Below are positions 19,327 through 26,831 of a stretch of DNA of 64,000 nucleotides, piece by piece. Both the position numbers and the translations under genes were made by a program. Origin of the DNA: Nocardioides iriomotensis (GTDB taxonomy: Bacteria > Actinomycetota > Actinomycetes > Propionibacteriales > Nocardioidaceae); assembly GCF_004168035.1 (NCBI RefSeq), contig NZ_SDPU01000035.1:248001-312000 (forward strand), read 5' to 3'. The stretch's first letter is position 1, and every line of letters starts with the position of its first letter. A model generated the notes under the pieces. It was not told the origin of the DNA and did no database searches. It saw only the letters and a list, made by a program, of their open reading frames with translations.

Positions 19327-20586
19327 TTGGCTCCTGACAGTCCGAATTGTCGGTCGACGTGGTGCCAACGCCGGTTGGCGCGCGTCGTCCGGACAGTGAT
19401 GGTGTGCCTTGCCCTGGCGCTGGGACCGGGTGCGATCAACCCCGGACCGGCATGGGGGGCCGACGGGAACACCGTGATCAGTCTGACCTTCGACGATGGG
19501 CATGCCAGCCAGATGGCGGTGGCCCGGATGCTCCGGTCCCGGGGCATGTCCGGGACCTTCTACATCAATTCGGGGCTGGTCGGCGCGAGCCCGTACTACC
19601 TCACCTGGTCCCAGGTGCACCGGGTGGCCGAGGCCGGCAACGAGATCGGCGGGCACACGGCCCACCACGTGCCGCTGGTCGCAGGCACCAGCCGGCGCAC
19701 CGCCGTCGCCGAGGTGTGCTCGGACCGCCACCAGCTGACCGAGCTGGCCCACGCGCCGGTGGCGTCGTTCGCCTACCCCGAGGCCGTGGTTCCGGGCCGC
19801 GGTGTGGAGAACCTGATCCGAGCGTGTGGCTATCGAAGTGCGCGGAATGTCGGAGGAGTGTTCAACCTGGACTGTCCTCGGTGTGCGTACGGCGAGAGCA
19901 TCCCGCCGCGTGATCCCTACAAGCTGCGTACCGTCCCGGGGGTGACCGACCGGGTCGTCCCGGCGAGCCTGCAGGCCAGCGTGACCAATGCCGAGCGGCA
20001 TGGCGGGGGATGGGTGATCTTCACCTTCCACGGCATCTGCGACAACCGGTGCACCGCGGCCGATTCGATGGCGACCAGGCCGTTCACCCAATTCCTGGAC
20101 TGGCTCGCGACCAGGCGTGATCGGGGCACTGAGGTCCGGACCGTCGGAGACGTGGTCTCGAACGGCCGATCGGTGCCGCGAGCCCCGTTGCGCACCGCGA
20201 TCCGCTGCGACTCCAAACCCTGCGCCGCCCGGCTCGGCGATCGCGGCACCGTGTCCATCAGCTTCGACCTCACCGGCGGCGGACATGCTCCGACAGCCAC
20301 GTACTACACGACCGACGGCTCCGACCCTCGCACCAGTCTCACGACCCATCACTACACGCGCCCGTTCGTCGTGGTCACGAACGAGGTGATCCGGTACTTC
20401 TCACGAGATGTGGCAGGACGCGCCGAACCGACACAGATGCAGGAGGTGCGGGTCACGAGCGGGCCTGACGAAGCCGACGCGCCGACGGGAGTCGACGCCT
20501 TCCTGTGGTTGGGCGGGCTGCTGGTCTTGGGTATCACGTTCCTGGGCATGGTTGCGCGTCACCGGCAGTTAGCCCGATTCGGCTGA
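19327..20586 (+). CDS. Secreted polysaccharide deacetylase with C-terminal chitobiase-like domain and membrane anchor
   Basis: About 419 residues from the TTG at 19327; a start nearer GTG/ATG 19397-19403 is also possible. A signal peptide (VMVCLALALGPG...AWGAD) leads to a NodB-type deacetylase domain with the metal-binding Asp pair in LTFDDGHA and the HTAHH His pair, and FAYPEAV as the third motif. FTFHGIC is the late catalytic region. A beta-sandwich segment follows (YYTTDGSDPRTS), typical of chitobiase/hexosaminidase C-terminal modules. One hydrophobic helix (LWLGGLLVLGITFLGMVA) anchors the end. It should deacetylate cell-wall or exopolysaccharide N-acetyl sugars outside the cell. Confidence 0.85.
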   Translation: MAPDSPNCRSTWCQRRLARVVRTVMVCLALALGPGAINPGPAWGADGNTVISLTFDDGHASQMAVARMLRSRGMSGTFYINSGLVGASPYYLTWSQVHRVAEAGNEIGGHTAHHVPLVAGTSRRTAVAEVCSDRHQLTELAHAPVASFAYPEAVVPGRGVENLIRACGYRSARNVGGVFNLDCPRCAYGESIPPRDPYKLRTVPGVTDRVVPASLQASVTNAERHGGGWVIFTFHGICDNRCTAADSMATRPFTQFLDWLATRRDRGTEVRTVGDVVSNGRSVPRAPLRTAIRCDSKPCAARLGDRGTVSISFDLTGGGHAPTATYYTTDGSDPRTSLTTHHYTRPFVVVTNEVIRYFSRDVAGRAEPTQMQEVRVTSGPDEADAPTGVDAFLWLGGLLVLGITFLGMVARHRQLARFG

Positions 20587-21004
20587 CTGCGGCGTGACCG
20601 CGACGTCCGCGGTCCGGCTCTGACTGAGCAGACTCCTTCGTCCGGCGCGTGACGATGCCGCGGTCGACGCAACCCGCTGAGTTCCTGCCTGGGGTGGTCC
20701 ATTCGCACATCAGCTGGCACGTGGACGAAGGGGCCAGATCCGCCGCTCAACGGCCCTGCGGGCGGCGCTGCCGCGCCGTCCTCGGGGCGTCGACCGCAGG
20801 AGGGCAGCGGTACCAAGGGGCTTCCACCCCTCTGGACCCTCGAACACGGAGCACCCTCGACGGCCAGCCGTTGACCTCGGGTCGTGTTCGAAGCCGTCGA
20901 GGCCGCCCTGGGGAGCGACGACCGCGGTCACTCTCGTCCCTCCGTACACGCCTGTGGTCGGCCAGGGCTCCGGCGGGCGCTGAGTACACATGGGGTAGGG
21001 AAAA

Positions 21005-21069
21005 CGGAAAACGGCGGCAGACGCTGCGATACCTCTGAAGGTACAGCCGCAGGTCAGCCGCCGTTTCCG
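21005..21069 (+). other. Nested stem-loop element
   Basis: CGGAAAACGGCGGC (21005-21018) pairs with GCCGCCGTTTCCG (21057-21069), giving a 13-bp stem with one bulged A. Inside, GCTG/CAGC (21023-21026 and 21044-21047) and TACCT/AGGTA (21030-21034 and 21039-21043) form a second arm with a CTGA loop. The design is that of a folded RNA or a recombination/replication site. No known RNA family was recognised. The strand is not determined, because the structure can fold on either. Confidence 0.55.
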
Positions 21070-21080
21070 ATCAGGCCGAG

Positions 21081-21097
21081 CGGGGCGTGTAGCCCCG
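21081..21097. terminator. GC hairpin next to the 13-bp glnA-end repeat
   Basis: CGGGGC (21081-21086), a 5-base loop and GCCCCG (21092-21097). It lies just beyond the LYYDI-stop relic on the minus strand, in the same relation that the glnA terminator at 24787-24803 has to glnA. It may be the original glnA terminator, displaced. No T-run follows. Confidence 0.5.
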
Positions 21098-21103
21098 ACT
21101 GCT

Positions 21104-21116
21104 AGATGTCGTAGTA
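21104..21116. other. Left copy of a 13-bp repeat matching the glnA 3' end (attachment-site candidate)
   Basis: AGATGTCGTAGTA is identical to 24811-24823, where it encodes the last glnA codons. Here the minus strand reads GLYYDI followed by TAG, a short copy of the GlnA C-terminus with unrelated sequence before it. The same orientation is kept. This is what an integrative element leaves when it uses a gene 3' end as attachment site. Confidence 0.5.
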
Positions 21117-21235
21117 CAGGCCGACACCGGGAAGGCACGCATCGAACCGTCGCAAAAGCGCAGGTCAGAGGCCCAGTCTGCAGCTCGTCTGAATGGGGGT
21201 AGGCGCGCCAGACCGGCGCTGATTCGGCGTGCCGT

Positions 21236-21257
21236 TGGGGGATTCCTGGGGGAAAGC
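21236..21257. repeat. Tandem 11-bp repeat, left pair
   Basis: TGGGGGATTCC followed directly by TGGGGGAAAGC. The pair closely resembles 24735-24756 (two exact copies of TGGGGGAATCC), and lies about 120 bases inside the left 13-bp repeat. Integrase arm-type sites are one explanation. Confidence 0.55.
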
Positions 21258-21420
21258 AGTTCCCACGGATCCATCATGCGAGCCCGCAGATCCCATCGCT
21301 ACAGCCCGAACGGACGGTCGCGGACCCCCTCGGCGGGCAGTGCGTGCCGGACCGTCTTGCGACGCGCACGAGGTGCTCGACCCGGCGAACGCGCGTGGGG
21401 AGTTGGGGCGACCGGGCCGC

Positions 21421-22398
21421 TCAGCCCTCGACAACGTGACCGTGCGGCCGCCCGGGGTCGTCGTACACCGGTGACCCCTGACCGGCCCGCAACGACTCCA
21501 GTTGCGCGCACACCGCCGCTCCGTAGAACAGCGCGATCGACGACAGCAGTGCCCAAAGCAGCAGCGCGAAGACGCCGGCGAGAGGCCCGTAGATGCTGCC
21601 GAATGACGAACTGGCGTTGACGTACACCGCCAGACCGCCGGTCGCGAGCATGGCCAGCAGCACGGCGACGCCGGAGCCGAGCGCGAGCCAGGAGAGTGCC
21701 GGTTGTCGACGCCGCGGTGCATGGTCGAGCAGGACGGCAATGGTGATGACGAGGAGGACCACACCGACCGGCCAGCGGACCACATTCCACACGTCGACGG
21801 TGGTGCGGGACCACCCGTAGTCACGCGCCATCGCGTCCGCAAACGCTCCGCCGGCGACGAGCAGCACGAACCCGGTTCCGACCGGTCCGGCGAGCAGGGC
21901 CGTGAAGACCGCGGCACGGCCGTACTTGCCCAGCGCCGGCCGGTCCCGCCGGATGCCGTAGATCCGGTTGGTGCCGCGCTCGATCTGAGCCATGGCCGTG
22001 GTCATTGAGACCAGCGCGAATGCCAGGCCGAACCCGAGGGCCAGCTCGCCGGCCTCCTCGCTGCTGTCCTCGCCCGTGACCGCGCTCGCCAGCGCGTCCG
22101 ACTCGCCCTGGCCGGGCGAGACCGCCTCGATGGTGCGCGCCACGACGCGCGCCGGCCGTTCCTCGTCGAGGTCGGCGGCCAGGCCGGTCAGCGCCAGCAG
22201 GAACGGCACGACGGCCAGGCAGGCCTGCAGCGCGAGCGCGCGGCTGTTGGTGAAGCCGTCGCCGTACCGGAAGCGAACGAAGGCTCCGATGGCGACGCGC
22301 CGCAGCCCGAACCGTCGGGCGAGGTGCCAGGCGTCCTCCGCGTCGAGCTCCTCACCGTCCATCTCCGTGGTGACGGGGACGGTGCGCGCCGTGGTCAT
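21421..22398 (-). CDS. YihY/BrkB family inner-membrane protein
   Basis: A 325-residue membrane protein with six hydrophobic segments and the family patterns NSRALALQACLAVVPFLLALTG near the N-terminus and SSFGSIYGPLAGVFALLLWALLSS towards the end. YihY/BrkB proteins were once called ribonuclease BN in error; their role is unknown, possibly transport. ATG 22398 is preferred because TAGCCT (minus strand, 22406-22411) lies seven bases before it, a leaderless start. A longer GTG start at 22446 is less likely. It lies inside the block bounded by the 13-bp repeats. Confidence 0.87.
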   Translation of the reverse strand: MTTARTVPVTTEMDGEELDAEDAWHLARRFGLRRVAIGAFVRFRYGDGFTNSRALALQACLAVVPFLLALTGLAADLDEERPARVVARTIEAVSPGQGESDALASAVTGEDSSEEAGELALGFGLAFALVSMTTAMAQIERGTNRIYGIRRDRPALGKYGRAAVFTALLAGPVGTGFVLLVAGGAFADAMARDYGWSRTTVDVWNVVRWPVGVVLLVITIAVLLDHAPRRRQPALSWLALGSGVAVLLAMLATGGLAVYVNASSSFGSIYGPLAGVFALLLWALLSSIALFYGAAVCAQLESLRAGQGSPVYDDPGRPHGHVVEG

Positions 22399-22617
22399 GG
22401 CGAGCAGGCTACGGGACCGCAACGGTGCGCGAGTGGCATGGGACACGCTCGGCGGCTACCCGGAACAGCGGGCCGGCGTCAGATCGTGCGCCGTCGACAT
22501 CAGATGGGCGAAGGACTCATCGGTGAGCGCGGCTGGTGCTGCTGCGGTCCTCGGGAGACGGCTGGGCACCCAACGCTGCGGCGCACGGATTTCGCTGTCG
22601 CAGGGCGGGTGGCGGCA

Positions 22618-22623
22618 TACGCT
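22618..22623 (+). promoter_or_regulatory. Probable -10 element of the secreted propeller gene
   Basis: TACGCT lies about 35 bases before the GTG at 22658, leaving room for a transcript start and the AGGAGG ribosome site at 22647-22652. Confidence 0.5.
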
Positions 22624-22657
22624 GCTGCCACTGCCGTCGCGACCACAGGAGGCCGCC

Positions 22658-23956
22658 GTGCCCGTTCTCAACGGCCGCGAGTGGGGCGCCCTCCGTGTCT
22701 GCTCCGGGGCGTTTGCGGTGCTGGTGGCGGCGGCGCTGGCGCCCTCGTCGGCGAACGCGGACGCGCCGCGTGGTCGAGCGGCTGCCGGGAAAGTCGTGTT
22801 CGCCTCGGCGCTCGACCCATCCCTTGGCGCTGCGCGCGCGGGCTACGCGCGTCTGTCGGCCGACGGCCGTGTCGTCGCGTTCGACGCGGCTGTGCCCGCG
22901 TCCTCGGTGCCGACCCAGGCGTACGCTCGCGACCTTCGTTCCGGTTCCCCCGCGCAGTTGGTTTCCGTCGCCGTCGACGGCGGCCCCGCGGACGCGGACG
23001 CCCGCGTGGCGTCGGTCTCGACCGATGGGAGGTTCGTCGCGTTCTGGTCGGCGGCAACGAACCTGGTTGCCGGTGACACCAACGGCGTGTACGACGTGTT
23101 CGTCCGCGACCGGGTCGCCGGGACGACCAGCAGGGTGTCGGTCGGGTCGGCGGGGGAGCAGGCGACCGGCGACAGCACGGCCGGGTTCATGTCGGCGGAC
23201 GGGAACCGGGTGGCGTTCATGTCGAAGGCGGACAACCTGGTCCCCGCGGACACGAACCGCAGAGGCGACGTCTTCGTGCGTGACCTGACCGCCGGAACCA
23301 CCCGTCGGGTCTCGCTCGCCCCGGGTGGGGCGCAGTCCGCGTGGCCGTCGCATGTCACGTCGATCTCTGCGGACGGCGACCACGTGGCGTTCATGTCCAC
23401 CGGCTCGGACTTGGCGGACCCCGACTCGGCGCACCGGTACCTGGTCTACGTGCACCATCTGCGGTCCGGTCGCACTGAGATTGCCTCGGTCGACCGGCAT
23501 GGTCGGCTGCCGGACGGCCGGTCACTGGGCGGGTCCCTGTCCGGGAACGGCAGGTTCGTCGCGTTCGCCTCCAGCGCGGACGACCTGGTGTCCAGTGATC
23601 CGGGCCGGGACACCGACGTGTACGTCCGCGATCTCAAGCGCGACCGTAACGAGATTGTCTCGGTGCGCCGGGACGGCAGCTCGGTGAACAAGGCATTCAG
23701 CTCATTGGTCTGGGACGGCGCTCTCTCCTACGACGGCCGCTTCGTCGCGTTCTCCTCGTCGGCGCGCCTGCTGCCGGGTCAGCCTCCTGGCAACTTCATC
23801 CGCGATCGCCGCACCGACACGACCACTCGGGTTACTTCAGGGGGTGACCTGCGGCTGGCCGGGGTCGCCCGTCGCGCCTCCTTCACCTCGGGCCGGGTAC
23901 TGGTCGACGCAGACACTGACGGCCTCTCCGACGTGTACGTGACGTCCTTCCGCTGA
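22658..23956 (+). CDS. Secreted TolB/WD40-like beta-propeller protein
   Basis: A 432-residue protein with a signal peptide (VCSGAFAVLVAAALAPSSANADA). It has repeated PD40-type blades: the pattern S.DGRxVAFxSxAxNLVxxDTN...DVFVRDxxxGTTxRVS recurs about seven times, the last being DGRFVAFSSSARLL. A strong AGGAGG ribosome site precedes the GTG at 22658. Propellers of this type bind proteins or glycans outside the cell; no catalytic residues are visible and the role is unknown. It lies within the block bounded by the glnA-end repeats. Confidence 0.82.
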   Translation: MPVLNGREWGALRVCSGAFAVLVAAALAPSSANADAPRGRAAAGKVVFASALDPSLGAARAGYARLSADGRVVAFDAAVPASSVPTQAYARDLRSGSPAQLVSVAVDGGPADADARVASVSTDGRFVAFWSAATNLVAGDTNGVYDVFVRDRVAGTTSRVSVGSAGEQATGDSTAGFMSADGNRVAFMSKADNLVPADTNRRGDVFVRDLTAGTTRRVSLAPGGAQSAWPSHVTSISADGDHVAFMSTGSDLADPDSAHRYLVYVHHLRSGRTEIASVDRHGRLPDGRSLGGSLSGNGRFVAFASSADDLVSSDPGRDTDVYVRDLKRDRNEIVSVRRDGSSVNKAFSSLVWDGALSYDGRFVAFSSSARLLPGQPPGNFIRDRRTDTTTRVTSGGDLRLAGVARRASFTSGRVLVDADTDGLSDVYVTSFR

Positions 23957-24421
23957 CCACGGGCCAGGACTTTCGCGGCGGGTGTCGGGGCGTGTCGCAT
24001 CCCTGTCGAGCGGCCCGCGGTTCGCTGGGGGCGGCGACGTCGCGGCTCAGTCCCGGCAGAACCTCCGGGGAGTCCGAGACCGCCGAGGCCCACCGCAGTC
24101 CAGCGAGGTGCCGGCGCGGCGGCTCATCAGCTCAAATGCTTCGGCTCTCGACCGACCAACATCGGCACCCATGACGACCGCATCCACGGCACGTCGGCCG
24201 ACGCCGTCACCCACGGCGGAAACGATGCGGTCATCGGAATCCCCCGCGCAGGGCGCGGCCCAGGTTCCGCCGCAGGGACTTGCGGTGGCTCTTCGCGAAC
24301 GGGTCACCGGTCTTCTGGCTGACCCCGGTCGCGATGTACTCCGCGACGAATCCCCGGCAGCGTGAGGGCGGACCTCGGCTTGTAGGCGCGGCGGGTCGCC
24401 GGCACCGCGGTGCGCCGGCCA

Positions 24422-24600
24422 GTCGGCGCGGCGCCCAGGCCAGCGAACCAGGCCAGCGCCTCCTCGCGCAGCCACAGGTTCCGGGCAAAGCCGGCCTTGG
24501 ACCGGGGAAAGGCGGCGGTGTAGTTGTGGGTGCGGGCGGCGTCCAGCGACAGGTGGAGGGCGGCCGCGACGTGGTCGATGGTCCAGATCGCTCGGTCGGT
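24422..24600 (-). pseudogene. Relic of an excisionase/AlpA-like helix-turn-helix protein
   Basis: The minus strand reads TDRAIWTIDHVAAALHLSLD, then AARTHNYTAAFPRSKAGFARNLWLREEALAWFAGLG in successive parts. This is the winged-helix pattern of small DNA-binding proteins (MerR/AlpA/Xis-like) carried by actinobacterial mobile elements: TIDxVAxxLxxS for the first helices, FPRP/S for the wing and LWxxEExxxWF for the last helix. No start codon is found upstream in this frame and the downstream tail (RRTAVPATRRAYKPRSAL) runs into a stop. I take it as a decayed gene. Confidence 0.5.
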
Positions 24601-24734
24601 CGCGGCGGGACCGACCCGGTGGGGTCCACGCGCGCCGCCGGTGGATGGCGGCCGGCACCGCCCGGCCGTGTCCGCGGGGCTCCGGCCAGCGGACGCGTGC
24701 CGAACCCGGGTGCCGCAACGACGACGGCCCCCGC

Positions 24735-24756
24735 TGGGGGAATCCTGGGGGAATCC
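24735..24756. repeat. Tandem 11-bp repeat, right pair
   Basis: Two exact consecutive copies of TGGGGGAATCC, 54 bases inside the right 13-bp repeat. It mirrors the pair at 21236-21257 near the left repeat, in the same orientation. Confidence 0.6.
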
Positions 24757-24786
24757 TCCGCGGGGGCCGCGCGAACCTGCAGGCCA

Positions 24787-24803
24787 GGGGCGGTTTCCGC
24801 CCC
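24787..24803 (-). terminator. glnA terminator hairpin
   Basis: GGGGCGG (24787-24793), a TTT loop and CCGCCCC (24797-24803) form a perfect 7-bp stem five bases after the glnA stop codon. There is no strong U-tract, as is common in actinobacterial terminators. Confidence 0.7.
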
Positions 24804-24808
24804 GACCG

Positions 24809-26227
24809 TCAGATGTCGTAGTAGAGCTCGAACTCGTGCGGGTGCGGCCGCTGCTGCACCGGCGCGATCTCCTGCGTGCGCTTGTAGTGGATCCACGTCT
24901 CGATCAGGTCCGGCGTGAAGACATTGCCGGCGGTGAGGAACTCGTGGTCCGCCTCGAGCGCGTCGAGGACGGCACCGAGCGAGGTCGGCACCTGGTCGAT
25001 CTCGGCCATCTCGTCCGGCGGGAGCTCGTAGATGTCCTTGTCGATCGGGGCGGCCGGCTCGATCTTGTTCTTGATGCCGTCGACACCGGCGAGCATCAGC
25101 GCCGAGAACGCGAGGTACGGGTTCGCCGACGGGTCGGGGAACCGGGTCTCGATGCGCTTGGCCTTCGGGTTGCTGCCCGTGATCGGGATGCGGACCGACG
25201 CCGACCGGTTGCGCGAGGAGTACACCAGCGAGATCGGGGCCTCGAAGCCCGGCACCAGGCGGTGGTAGGAGTTCACCGTCGGGTTCGTGAACGCCAGCAG
25301 CGACGGGGCGTGCTTGAGGATGCCGCCGATGTAGTAGCGCGCCATGTCGGACAGCCCGGCGTAGCCGACCTCGTCGTAGAACAGCGGGTCGCCGTCCTTC
25401 CAGAGCGACTGGTGCACGTGCATGCCGGAGCCGTTGTCACCGAAGATCGGCTTCGGCATGAAGGTGACCGACTTGCCGTTGTGCCAGGCCGTGTTCTTGA
25501 TGATGTACTTGAACTTCATCACGTCGTCGGCGGCGCGGAGCAGCGTGTCGAAGCGGTAGTTGATCTCCGCCTGGCCGGCCGTGCCGACCTCGTGGTGCGC
25601 GCGCTCGACGAGCAGGCCCGAGGCCTCGAGGTTCTTCACCATCTCGTCGCGCAGGTCGCTGTAGTGGTCGTACGGCGCGACGGGGAAGTAGCCACCCTTG
25701 AAGCGGGTCTTGTAGCCCAGGTTGTCGCCCTCGGCGCCGGAGTTCCACCAGCCCTCGACCGAGTCGATGTGGTAGTAGCCCTCGTTGGCGTCGGTGGAGT
25801 AGCGGACGGAGTCGAAGATGTAGAACTCCGCCTCGGGAGCGAAGTACGCCGTGTCCGCGATGCCCGTCGTCTCGAGGTAGGACAGCGCCTTGCGGGCGAT
25901 GTTGCGCGGGTCGCGGGAGTAGGCCTCGCCCGTGATCGGGTCGTGGATGAAGAAGTTCAGGACCAGGGTCTTGGCGGTCCGGAACGGGTCGATGAAGGCG
26001 GTGGTCGGGTCCGGGAACAGCGCCATGTCGGACTCGTTGATGGCCTGGAAGCCGCGGATCGAGCTGCCGTCGAAGGCCAGACCGTCCTCGAAGACGCTCT
26101 TGTCGAACGACGACACGGGGACCGTGAAGTGCTGCATGATGCCCGGCAGGTCGCAGAACCGGATGTCGACCATCTCGACGCCCTCGTCCTTGACGTACTT
26201 CAGCAGCTCTTCGCTGTTTGCGAACAT
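24809..26227 (-). CDS. glnA: Glutamine synthetase, type I
   Basis: A 472-residue GSI enzyme that makes glutamine from glutamate, ammonia and ATP as a dodecamer. The beta-grasp N-terminus ([20 protein letters not shown]) and catalytic patterns FDGSSIRGF, the GSGMHVHQS active-site loop and [20 protein letters not shown] are complete. [13 protein letters not shown] contains the Tyr that is adenylylated in GSI-beta enzymes, so activity is probably controlled by adenylylation. The ATG at 26227 has a GGAGGA ribosome site. Upstream lie two GlnR boxes and TAGGTT. The start chosen gives the standard length; longer in-frame starts run through the promoter. Confidence 0.98.
24811..24823. other. Right copy of the 13-bp repeat, within the 3' end of glnA
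   Basis: AGATGTCGTAGTA forms the last codons of glnA and part of the stop. The identical left copy is at 21104-21116, 3.7 kb away. See the findings for the integrative-element interpretation. Confidence 0.5.
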
Positions 26228-26303
26228 TCGTCCTCCTGCGGCCGCGGGTCGCGGCCATGAATCCATCACATGTGTCAGGTGCGGCGCTGCACCACTGATC
26301 CGC

Positions 26304-26309
26304 AACCTA
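26304..26309 (-). promoter_or_regulatory. Probable -10 element of glnA
   Basis: TAGGTT on the minus strand, about 77 bases before the glnA ATG and 10 bases downstream of the proximal GlnR box, leaves a leader of roughly 70 bases. Confidence 0.6.
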
Positions 26310-26319
26310 CGGAGATGCG

Positions 26320-26357
26320 GTTTCTCGACCGTATCCGGTTTGTTTCGTCCATGTAAC
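26320..26357 (-). promoter_or_regulatory. Tandem GlnR boxes upstream of glnA
   Basis: On the minus strand the sequence reads GTTAC-ATGGAC-GAAAC, six bases, then GATAC-GGTCGA-GAAAC. This fits the GlnR consensus gTnAC-n6-GaAAC twice, with the n6 spacing between boxes known from Streptomyces glnA. Only one consensus base deviates (A for T in the second box). GlnR should activate or tune glnA under nitrogen limitation. Confidence 0.9.
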
Positions 26358-26417
26358 AGACCTCTGGACCGCTCGGGCGGTACGGCGACCCGCGGAGCGG
26401 CTCGGTAGGTTGACGCC

Positions 26418-26831
26418 GTGAACACCGACGCGCCGTACCCCGGTCAACGGCTCGGCGTGCCCGCCGACGGACCAGGCTCCGTGGCGTCCTGGGGCCGGCG
26501 GCTCCTCGCGCTGGTCGTCGACTGGGCGGCGTCCCTGCTCGTCGCCGGCCTCGTCTTCGGACGCGAGGTCTGGGGCCAGGACTGGCAGGCGTGGATGCCG
26601 ATGGCGGTGTTCCTCGTCGAGGCGAGCCTCCTGACGGCGCTGCTCGGCGGCTCGTTCGGCCAGCTCGTGCTGCGACTCGGCGTCGCGCGGCTCGACGGCA
26701 GGCCGGTCAACCTGCTCCAGGCGCTCGGCCGGACGGCGCTGATCTGCCTGGTGGTGCCGCCGCTGGTGTTCAACCGCGACAACCGCGGCCTGCACGACCT
26801 GGCGTTCGGCACGGTCGCGCTGCGGCGCTGA
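26418..26831 (+). CDS. RDD family membrane protein
   Basis: A 137-residue protein with three hydrophobic segments and the RDD signature residues (Arg in [12 protein letters not shown] with the following Asp, and a late [13 protein letters not shown]). Function of the family is uncertain; ion exchange has been reported for some members. Actinobacteria commonly keep an RDD gene beside glnA. TAGGTT (26406-26411) lies six bases before the GTG, a leaderless start. It is divergent from glnA across a 190-base region that also holds the GlnR boxes. Confidence 0.88.

Follow-up and report, generated by a model that had tools for sequence, protein, structure and literature searches.

The glnA locus and its stem-loop

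The window, that is, the whole 64,000-nucleotide stretch of Nocardioides iriomotensis DNA analysed here, bears a stem-loop (SL) at 21005–21069, within an 834-base gap between a polysaccharide deacetylase gene (19327–20586, plus strand) and a BrkB-family gene (21421–22446, minus strand). The features are listed from glnA onwards, with element ends and arms named according to the interpretation developed below.

24809–26425, minus: glnA, glutamine synthetase, the target gene (named in the earlier note and on reading of the sequence)
24809–24823, minus: attachment core at the true glnA 3′ end
24787–24803, minus: hairpin GGGGCGGAAACCGCCCC immediately after glnA, left end of element A (from sequence)
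24731–24753, plus: left arm-type repeats of element A, TGGGGGAATCCTGGGGGAA
24436–24588, minus: remnant of a small HTH-like frame (IWTIDHVA...), 63% identical over 54 aa to locus L059 (translation)
22682–23956, plus: element A cargo, PD40 beta-propeller protein (PF07676, E 1.3e-5)
21421–22446, minus: element A cargo, BrkB/YihY family membrane protein (PF03631, E 1.9e-39)
21232–21254, plus: right arm-type repeats of element A, TGGGGGATTCCTGGGGGAA
21159–21168, plus: CGCAGGTCAG motif, right end of element A
21102–21116, minus: attachment core, detached copy of the glnA 3′ end (Tyr-Tyr-Asp-Ile-stop)
21081–21097, minus: small GC-rich hairpin CGGGGC-gtgta-GCCCCG in the interval between core and SL (from sequence)
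21003–21070, minus: SL, candidate left-end (glnA-proximal) attachment-arm hairpin of relic element B, also a probable terminator pointing away from glnA (fold z −6.3; 82 bits under model R1, which was built from 10 copies including this one)
20980–21000, minus: decayed arm-type direct repeat adjoining SL, one half (TGTGTACTCAG) intact

On the plus strand, SL folds with a minimum free energy of −39.8 kcal/mol against −20.6 ± 3.1 in dinucleotide shuffles (z = −6.3), none of 200 shuffles being as stable, and the shuffle test gives z = −6.2 for the minus strand. Its outer stem pairs GGAAAACGGCGG.. with ..CCGCCGTTTCC around a single bulge, and its tip reads TACCT-CTGA-AGGTA. Folding thus confirms the 13-bp outer stem with one bulge and the TACCT/AGGTA stem with a CTGA loop described in an earlier note on this DNA. 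The nested two-arm design proposed there holds as far as the pairing goes; the shape is a single long interrupted hairpin and not a pair of separate arms. The distance of 35 bases that the note had given from SL to a 13-bp glnA-end repeat (AGATGTCGTAGTA, 21104–21116) is correct. A BLAST search of the same genome returned one SL match, and the hairpin model scored well at SL only, with two other places at E 0.12 and 0.24. SL is therefore single-copy in its own genome, which rules out a dispersed repeat or MITE. No Rfam family matched above threshold anywhere in the window.

Between glnA and SL lies element A, a 3.7-kb remnant (21102–24823) bounded by the two cores. With mismatches admitted, the glnA-end repeat extends to 33 nt (21092–21124 and 24799–24831, 82% identity). 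TGGGGGA..TGGGGGA repeats lie within element A, inward of both its cores, two such matches being seen in 1 of 100 shuffles. The HTH-like remnant at 24436–24588 has no Pfam match, and its counterpart in the relative G143 stands next to an integrase-like frame, which it precedes. glnA itself has protein matches of 78–82% in five of the six other genus members searched, the sixth (G006) giving none at E ≤ 1e-100.

SL lies beyond the second core, outside the element A remnant, and half of a repeat pair survives beside it; in the genus mate G003, the counterpart of this decayed repeat is the pair GTGTGTACTCAATGTGTACTC. At the position of the small GC-rich hairpin, several relatives have, by eye, a GAGGG..CCCTC-type hairpin instead. 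A second copy of the CGCAGGTCAG motif lies within SL (21048–21057), and a count over the window that tolerates one mismatch shows no enrichment (14 occurrences, 11.2 expected). A third core with up to 3 mismatches is absent within the window further left of SL, so no far end of element B was found there, and PF00589 has no match on the contig. We read SL in the window as what survives of an older element, B, which has decayed to its left end and lost the other; two ends would thus be stacked here, with the element A remnant placed between glnA and the left end of element B.

Conservation of the hairpin and its place in relatives

In G003, SL stands directly behind an intact glnA. BLAST against 149 genomes of the family found an SL match in 17; ten of the 20 BLAST places (L039, L040, L042–L044, L046–L049, and L004) were dropped as partial or chance. 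With a covariance model, 178 of 341 family genomes have a match at E ≤ 0.01, weak and antisense matches included, and 42 of 245 genomes of the order have one at E ≤ 1e-8. Antisense matches were dropped from further use, and the place of the hairpin was examined for the top-of-list copies among the 178 model-positive genomes only, together with a few copies fetched otherwise. Exact pattern matches in 15 stretches belong to Nocardioides, Aeromicrobium, Arsenicicoccus, and one unclassified Actinomycetes MAG. The Arsenicicoccus copy (L109, A. piscis NZ_JAKZHV010000006.1), also behind glnA, is in a record named for a genus that we take to lie outside the order, and may reflect a transfer or a misnamed or mixed assembly.

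The glnA-end core, with up to 4 mismatches allowed, was found by script upstream of SL in the glnA sense in 38 of 39 copies. The distance from core start to SL is 45–48 nt in 36 copies and 58 nt in two, and the core is joined to a full glnA in 23 copies and detached in 15, the one remaining copy having no core. Five of the 39 copies came from a search pattern that itself contained the core and are therefore no proof of place; without these five and with L036 added, 33 of 35 copies have the core at a nearly constant spacing of about 46 nt. Three other families of the order contributed 15 loci, of which 14 have the core (the exception is L190), as do two of three further loci of the same family. 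The copies lacking a core are L057, L036, L190, and L196. Of these, L036 (G055) lies at a contig edge with a damaged 5′ half, and L057 (G003, C169, 7147–7214) is SL with a repeat pair, with genes for a LacI-type regulator and a putative chromate-resistance protein (named by eye) as neighbours. In L123 (G212) and L131 (G177), both with a detached core, an apparent inverted glnA-end piece lies between core and hairpin, and the spacing is 58 instead of 46 nt. The draft glnA of another genus mate (L055, G004:C103:2629-3621) has one in-frame TGA, possibly a sequencing error.

Conservation of the fold was assessed with a 26-pair structure, named by the analyst, on two alignments. Alignment A5 holds 36 of the 39 copies (L123, L105, and L131, though part of the place count, are omitted), and A6 holds 40 sequences, namely 24 of those 36 and 16 of 18 further loci (L182 and L194 are omitted). 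The cells pair in 93.8% and 91.5% of cases in A5 and A6, respectively, as compared with 32–48% for control structures slid along the alignment. The covariation score is 0.211 in A5 (shuffled mean 0.119) and 0.239 in A6 (shuffled mean 0.139), in each case with none of 500 shuffles as high and with the kinship of the sequences retained in the data. Cells changed on both sides number 44 and 59, again with none of 500 shuffles as high. The counts of pairs changed on both sides and of further pair types were equalled in A5 by 85 and 46 of 500 shuffles, and in A6 by 2 and 0. RNAalifold gave a small covariation term (−0.76) for the first ten copies. The CTGACCTGC half of SL is nearly invariant in the alignment, the two arms are conserved unequally (CCTGCGG versus CGCTGG), and the bulge is at the same place in most copies. 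SL is a real, conserved hairpin whose base pairs covary. The earlier note had named a lack of conserved pairing in relatives as grounds for refuting its stem-loop; the pairing is kept there and covaries.

Elements bounded by the glnA-end core

Relatives of the window contain what look like integrative elements in which the glnA-end core is followed by one or more hairpins, paired direct repeats, cargo, an excisionase-like gene with a tyrosine integrase gene, similar repeats, the GCAGGTCAG motif, and a second core. One complete case, the element of G144, measures 24.5 kb. On its glnA side come the core, a small hairpin, SL (left end, 947636–947703), the repeats GTGTAACCAGTGTGTAACC, and then cargo; an HTH_17 gene and a PF00589 integrase gene lie at 962–964 kb, followed by a second cargo block, and the far end has an exact core at 972121 with TTTCCGCAGGTCAG just before it. 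A 4.9-kb stretch in G148 has cores at both bounds and SL on the glnA side, and in G143 two further core–SL ends are stacked downstream of glnA. Neither the G148 nor the G143 element has a PF00589 match, and the integrase-like frame of G143, which has no Pfam match, is our own reading of the sequence. A direct-repeat core at both ends, identical or almost identical to the glnA end, was found in G144, G148, G143, G142, G138, G238, and G228, as well as in element A of the window.

A search of 40 SL-bearing genomes with the G144 integrase returned 25 matches at E ≤ 1e-30 in 20 genomes. Of the 14 matches below 1e-100, 12 are on the contig of SL, about 14–93 kb downstream in the glnA sense, and the remaining two (G320, G173) are on contigs other than those of their listed SL. 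Weaker or partial matches lie 0.1–20 kb downstream of SL in G025, G138, and G198; both matches in G235 are upstream of SL, and other weaker ones lie elsewhere. The other 20 of the 40 genomes, that of the window among them, have no integrase of the G144 type at this threshold. A tyrosine integrase inside the element is seen in relatives (the PF00589 protein of G144 and the 12 strong matches downstream of an SL) and not on the contig of the window. The copies of SL in relatives thus sit at a near-fixed distance from the core and bound integrase-bearing elements, in favour of the attachment structure that the earlier note had listed among its options. Two observations made separately in that note, the hairpin and the glnA-end repeat, become components of one structure.

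Nine cargo proteins from L059 (G143), L067 (G148), and L073 (G144) were compared with PADLOC: three match well (a PDC-M23B/HamB-like helicase, which lies in the second cargo block of G144, an Old/AriA-like ATPase, and AbiEii), two weakly, and four not at all. A dynamin-like GTPase, VWA, and PP2C set in the G143 cargo was named by eye only. glnA may thus be a defence-island hotspot.

The far ends were read around the likely right ends of 17 loci, with a core in 10 and not in seven. By a simple pattern, five of the 10 far cores are not followed by SL, four are, and G198 has an SL that lacks its 3′ half. The hairpin model was applied behind seven far cores without clear SL, i.e., the five pattern-negative loci together with G144 and G148. 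Nothing was found in four of them (G238, the second element of G228, G144, and G148), and weak matches were found in G138 (E 0.00025), G142 (0.014), and G270 (0.046). These weak hairpins (L128, L120, and L121) are SL-like, with a CTGACCTGCG-like motif, and could mark the ends of additional older elements or be native terminators that have diverged; their presence in three of seven elements weakens, without undoing, the claim that SL belongs to the element. The CTGACCTGC half of SL recurs singly at right ends, about 17–20 nt from the core.

The repeats beside SL resemble those at the far end of the same element, scoring on average 15.25 of 18 against 13.47 on permutation, with 0.5% of permutations as high, and the element's own far end is best or tied in only five of the eight elements compared (G270 and G148 were excluded). 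The two elements stacked in G228 differ in repeat type, and the repeats of each resemble those at that element's far end. A second post-core hairpin, of the GGCCCCGGGACTCCCCGGGGCC type, alternates with SL behind glnA (L166, L169, and L175) and also occurs behind detached cores (L122, L167, L168, L170, and L174); perhaps it is the end of another element family or a native terminator.

To look for empty sites, the DNA beyond the G228 and G238 far cores was searched for in 196 genomes each. In three genomes, one of these sequence types immediately follows glnA; because this type could itself be an end of a different element, it was not used as proof of an empty site. No intact empty and occupied pair of the same strain was found, and attB and attP are deduced.

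In L004 (G001) and L043 (G101), the GCAGGTCAG motif is also seen after tRNA-like ends, next to a long GTTTCCG hairpin, a hint that one recognition system may serve tRNA sites as well; ARAGORN identifies a tRNA-Met in L004 only, not in L043. A tRNA-linked attachment site for SL was rejected because no tRNA occurs in the window or in the 24 strong SL loci scanned; among 19 earlier loci, a tRNA was found only in L004, which is no SL copy. An excisionase operator was likewise rejected: with one mismatch, GCAGGTCAG lies upstream of the integrase gene in two of 11 Nocardioidaceae loci, once in each, which is about chance. In a Streptomyces relative, two copies of the motif lie upstream of the integrase gene. 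A search for attP in viral contigs gave one pattern match (L119), set aside on its repeats alone, which resemble no attachment site, and no relative of the integrase was found in these contigs. A plasmid collection searched with the intergenic DNA of the window gave no match.

Function of the hairpin and comparison with known systems

In our view, SL is probably the P′-arm attachment hairpin of tyrosine-integrase elements that target the glnA 3′ end, and it probably serves as a glnA terminator after integration; the copy in the window is most probably the left-over end of such a mobile element. The attachment site would be ordered as arm repeats, GCAGGTCAG motif, core (the last glnA codons with the stop), one or more hairpins, and arm repeats. 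By analogy with known integrase biology, the integrase would recombine core with core, the paired repeats being putative arm sites. The core would then supply the last glnA codons, and SL, by then the next feature after glnA, most probably stops transcription of that gene and protects the element, so that it may act as the replacement stop signal of the gene. Termination is predicted from the hairpin together with its T-rich tail, which reads GTTTTTCGTT or GTTTTCCGTT in 17 of the 39 copies, with variants in the rest. The U-tract of this tail is short and interrupted, and a scan of the window for consensus terminators returned no site. Judging from the sequences compared, the hosts of glnA-end elements would be Nocardioidaceae and related families.

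The closest competitor, which we hold to be rather improbable, differs from the attachment-arm reading only in the job of the hairpin. Here, SL would be a protein site and nothing else, two inverted copies of the CTGACCTGCGGAAACGTC motif that an integrase, an excisionase, or a host factor would bind as double-stranded DNA, with the pairing as a by-product. The near invariance of the CTGACCTGC half, its single recurrence at right ends, and its appearance after the two tRNA-like ends of L004 and L043 agree with such a site, whereas unequal arms, a bulge kept in place in most copies, and covarying flanking pairs do not; nor is the motif enriched upstream of HTH genes, unlike the site of a self-regulating excisionase. 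That SL is instead the native glnA terminator or 3′ UTR of the order, with elements inserting between it and glnA or having picked it up, and with no role in recombination, appears unlikely. The T-rich tail, the 23 of 39 copies directly behind a full glnA, and the weak SL-like hairpins behind the far core in three of seven elements would fit this, as would G123, where the gene beyond glnA and SL looks like a host gene and has host-like codon use. However, in the other four elements, which have SL at the glnA side, the model search past the far core gave no match; the stacked elements of G228 and G143 each have their own SL, in G228 with its own repeat type; and in G001, G101, G175, and G243, glnA is not directly followed by SL.

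Far less credible is a small regulatory RNA or riboswitch-like element. A covarying stem with conserved internal sequence would suit it, but SL has no Rfam match and is closely tied to the glnA-end core and to mobile-element ends, and a sigma-70 scan gave no promoter-like site, though such a scan may miss actinobacterial promoters. Of the three options of the earlier note, the attachment structure is supported and, on the RNA side, a role as terminator is likely; nothing in this analysis points to an origin-like element or to a separate regulatory RNA. A further variant, to which we give very little weight, is that the recombination machinery reads the hairpin, with its bulge and asymmetric arms, as a structure, SL acting, for instance, as single-stranded DNA delivered by conjugation or as a cruciform. 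If true, this would be a lambda-type attachment site with a folded control element that sets the direction or strand of integration. Integron attC sites are imperfect hairpins with conserved bulges at recombination sites; in contrast to attC, the presumed crossover here is in the core, outside the hairpin, and no attC core motifs were recognised in SL by eye.

On the attachment-arm reading, an unexplained hairpin becomes tied to an insertion hotspot at the 3′ end of the housekeeping gene glnA in several families of one order. Its elements span roughly 4 to over 90 kb, as estimated from core and integrase positions, and some carry defence-like cargo. Genomes that lack annotation can be scanned for such element ends with the hairpin model, and the layout suggests a way in which an element can settle at a housekeeping gene while leaving expression of that gene intact.

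The kind of system is already known; for glnA as insertion site and for this conserved hairpin, no description was found in a literature search that covered mostly openly accessible papers and is therefore weak evidence of absence, nor in the excerpts of PMC3218068, PMC3203893, PMC11706625, and PMC10654092. In phage and plasmid collections, the closest integrases (48–50%) are in Streptomyces records. One of the two closest (50% identity) belongs to a circular 18.5-kb plasmid record of Streptomyces sp. NBC_00562 (NZ_CP107792.1, L177), annotated with FtsK, prim-pol, HTH, and integrase genes. Like the glnA elements, it has an HTH gene before the integrase gene and, close to where the record starts, a near-perfect hairpin with a T/G tail, arm-like repeats on both sides, and a stretch resembling a gene end, the gene end and part of the repeats being identified by eye; the gene end and the hairpin sequence differ from those of the glnA elements. 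From its sequence, we read it as an excised integrative element.

AICEs with a tyrosine integrase target mostly tRNA 3′ ends, according to the excerpts of PMC3218068, and share with the glnA elements the order att, cargo, Xis, Int, att, direct-repeat ends that restore the gene 3′ end, and tandem arrays; the word “glutamine” is absent from the main text of that paper. Of the AICE gene set (FtsK-like translocase, Rep/prim-pol, Xis, and Int), the comparison with the glnA elements covered the Int and Xis-like genes. The attP of cluster K1 mycobacteriophages, reportedly described by Pope et al. in 2011, is close in architecture. As given in the excerpts of PMC3203893, attP of CrimD and its relatives has, between its core and its arm-type sites, a putative stem-loop terminator; the arm-type sites are pairs of 11-bp repeats on either side of the core. 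Tyrosine integrase, core, and a hairpin between core and arm sites are thus common to both systems; the K1 phages target the tmRNA gene, whereas the target here is the protein-coding glnA, and the second repeat pair of CrimD is inverted with respect to the first, whereas direct repeats were compared here (PMC3203893, same excerpts). In contrast to the K1 attP, the glnA hairpin forms one covarying family over several families of an order and contains an internal GCAGGTCAG motif common to the other arm.
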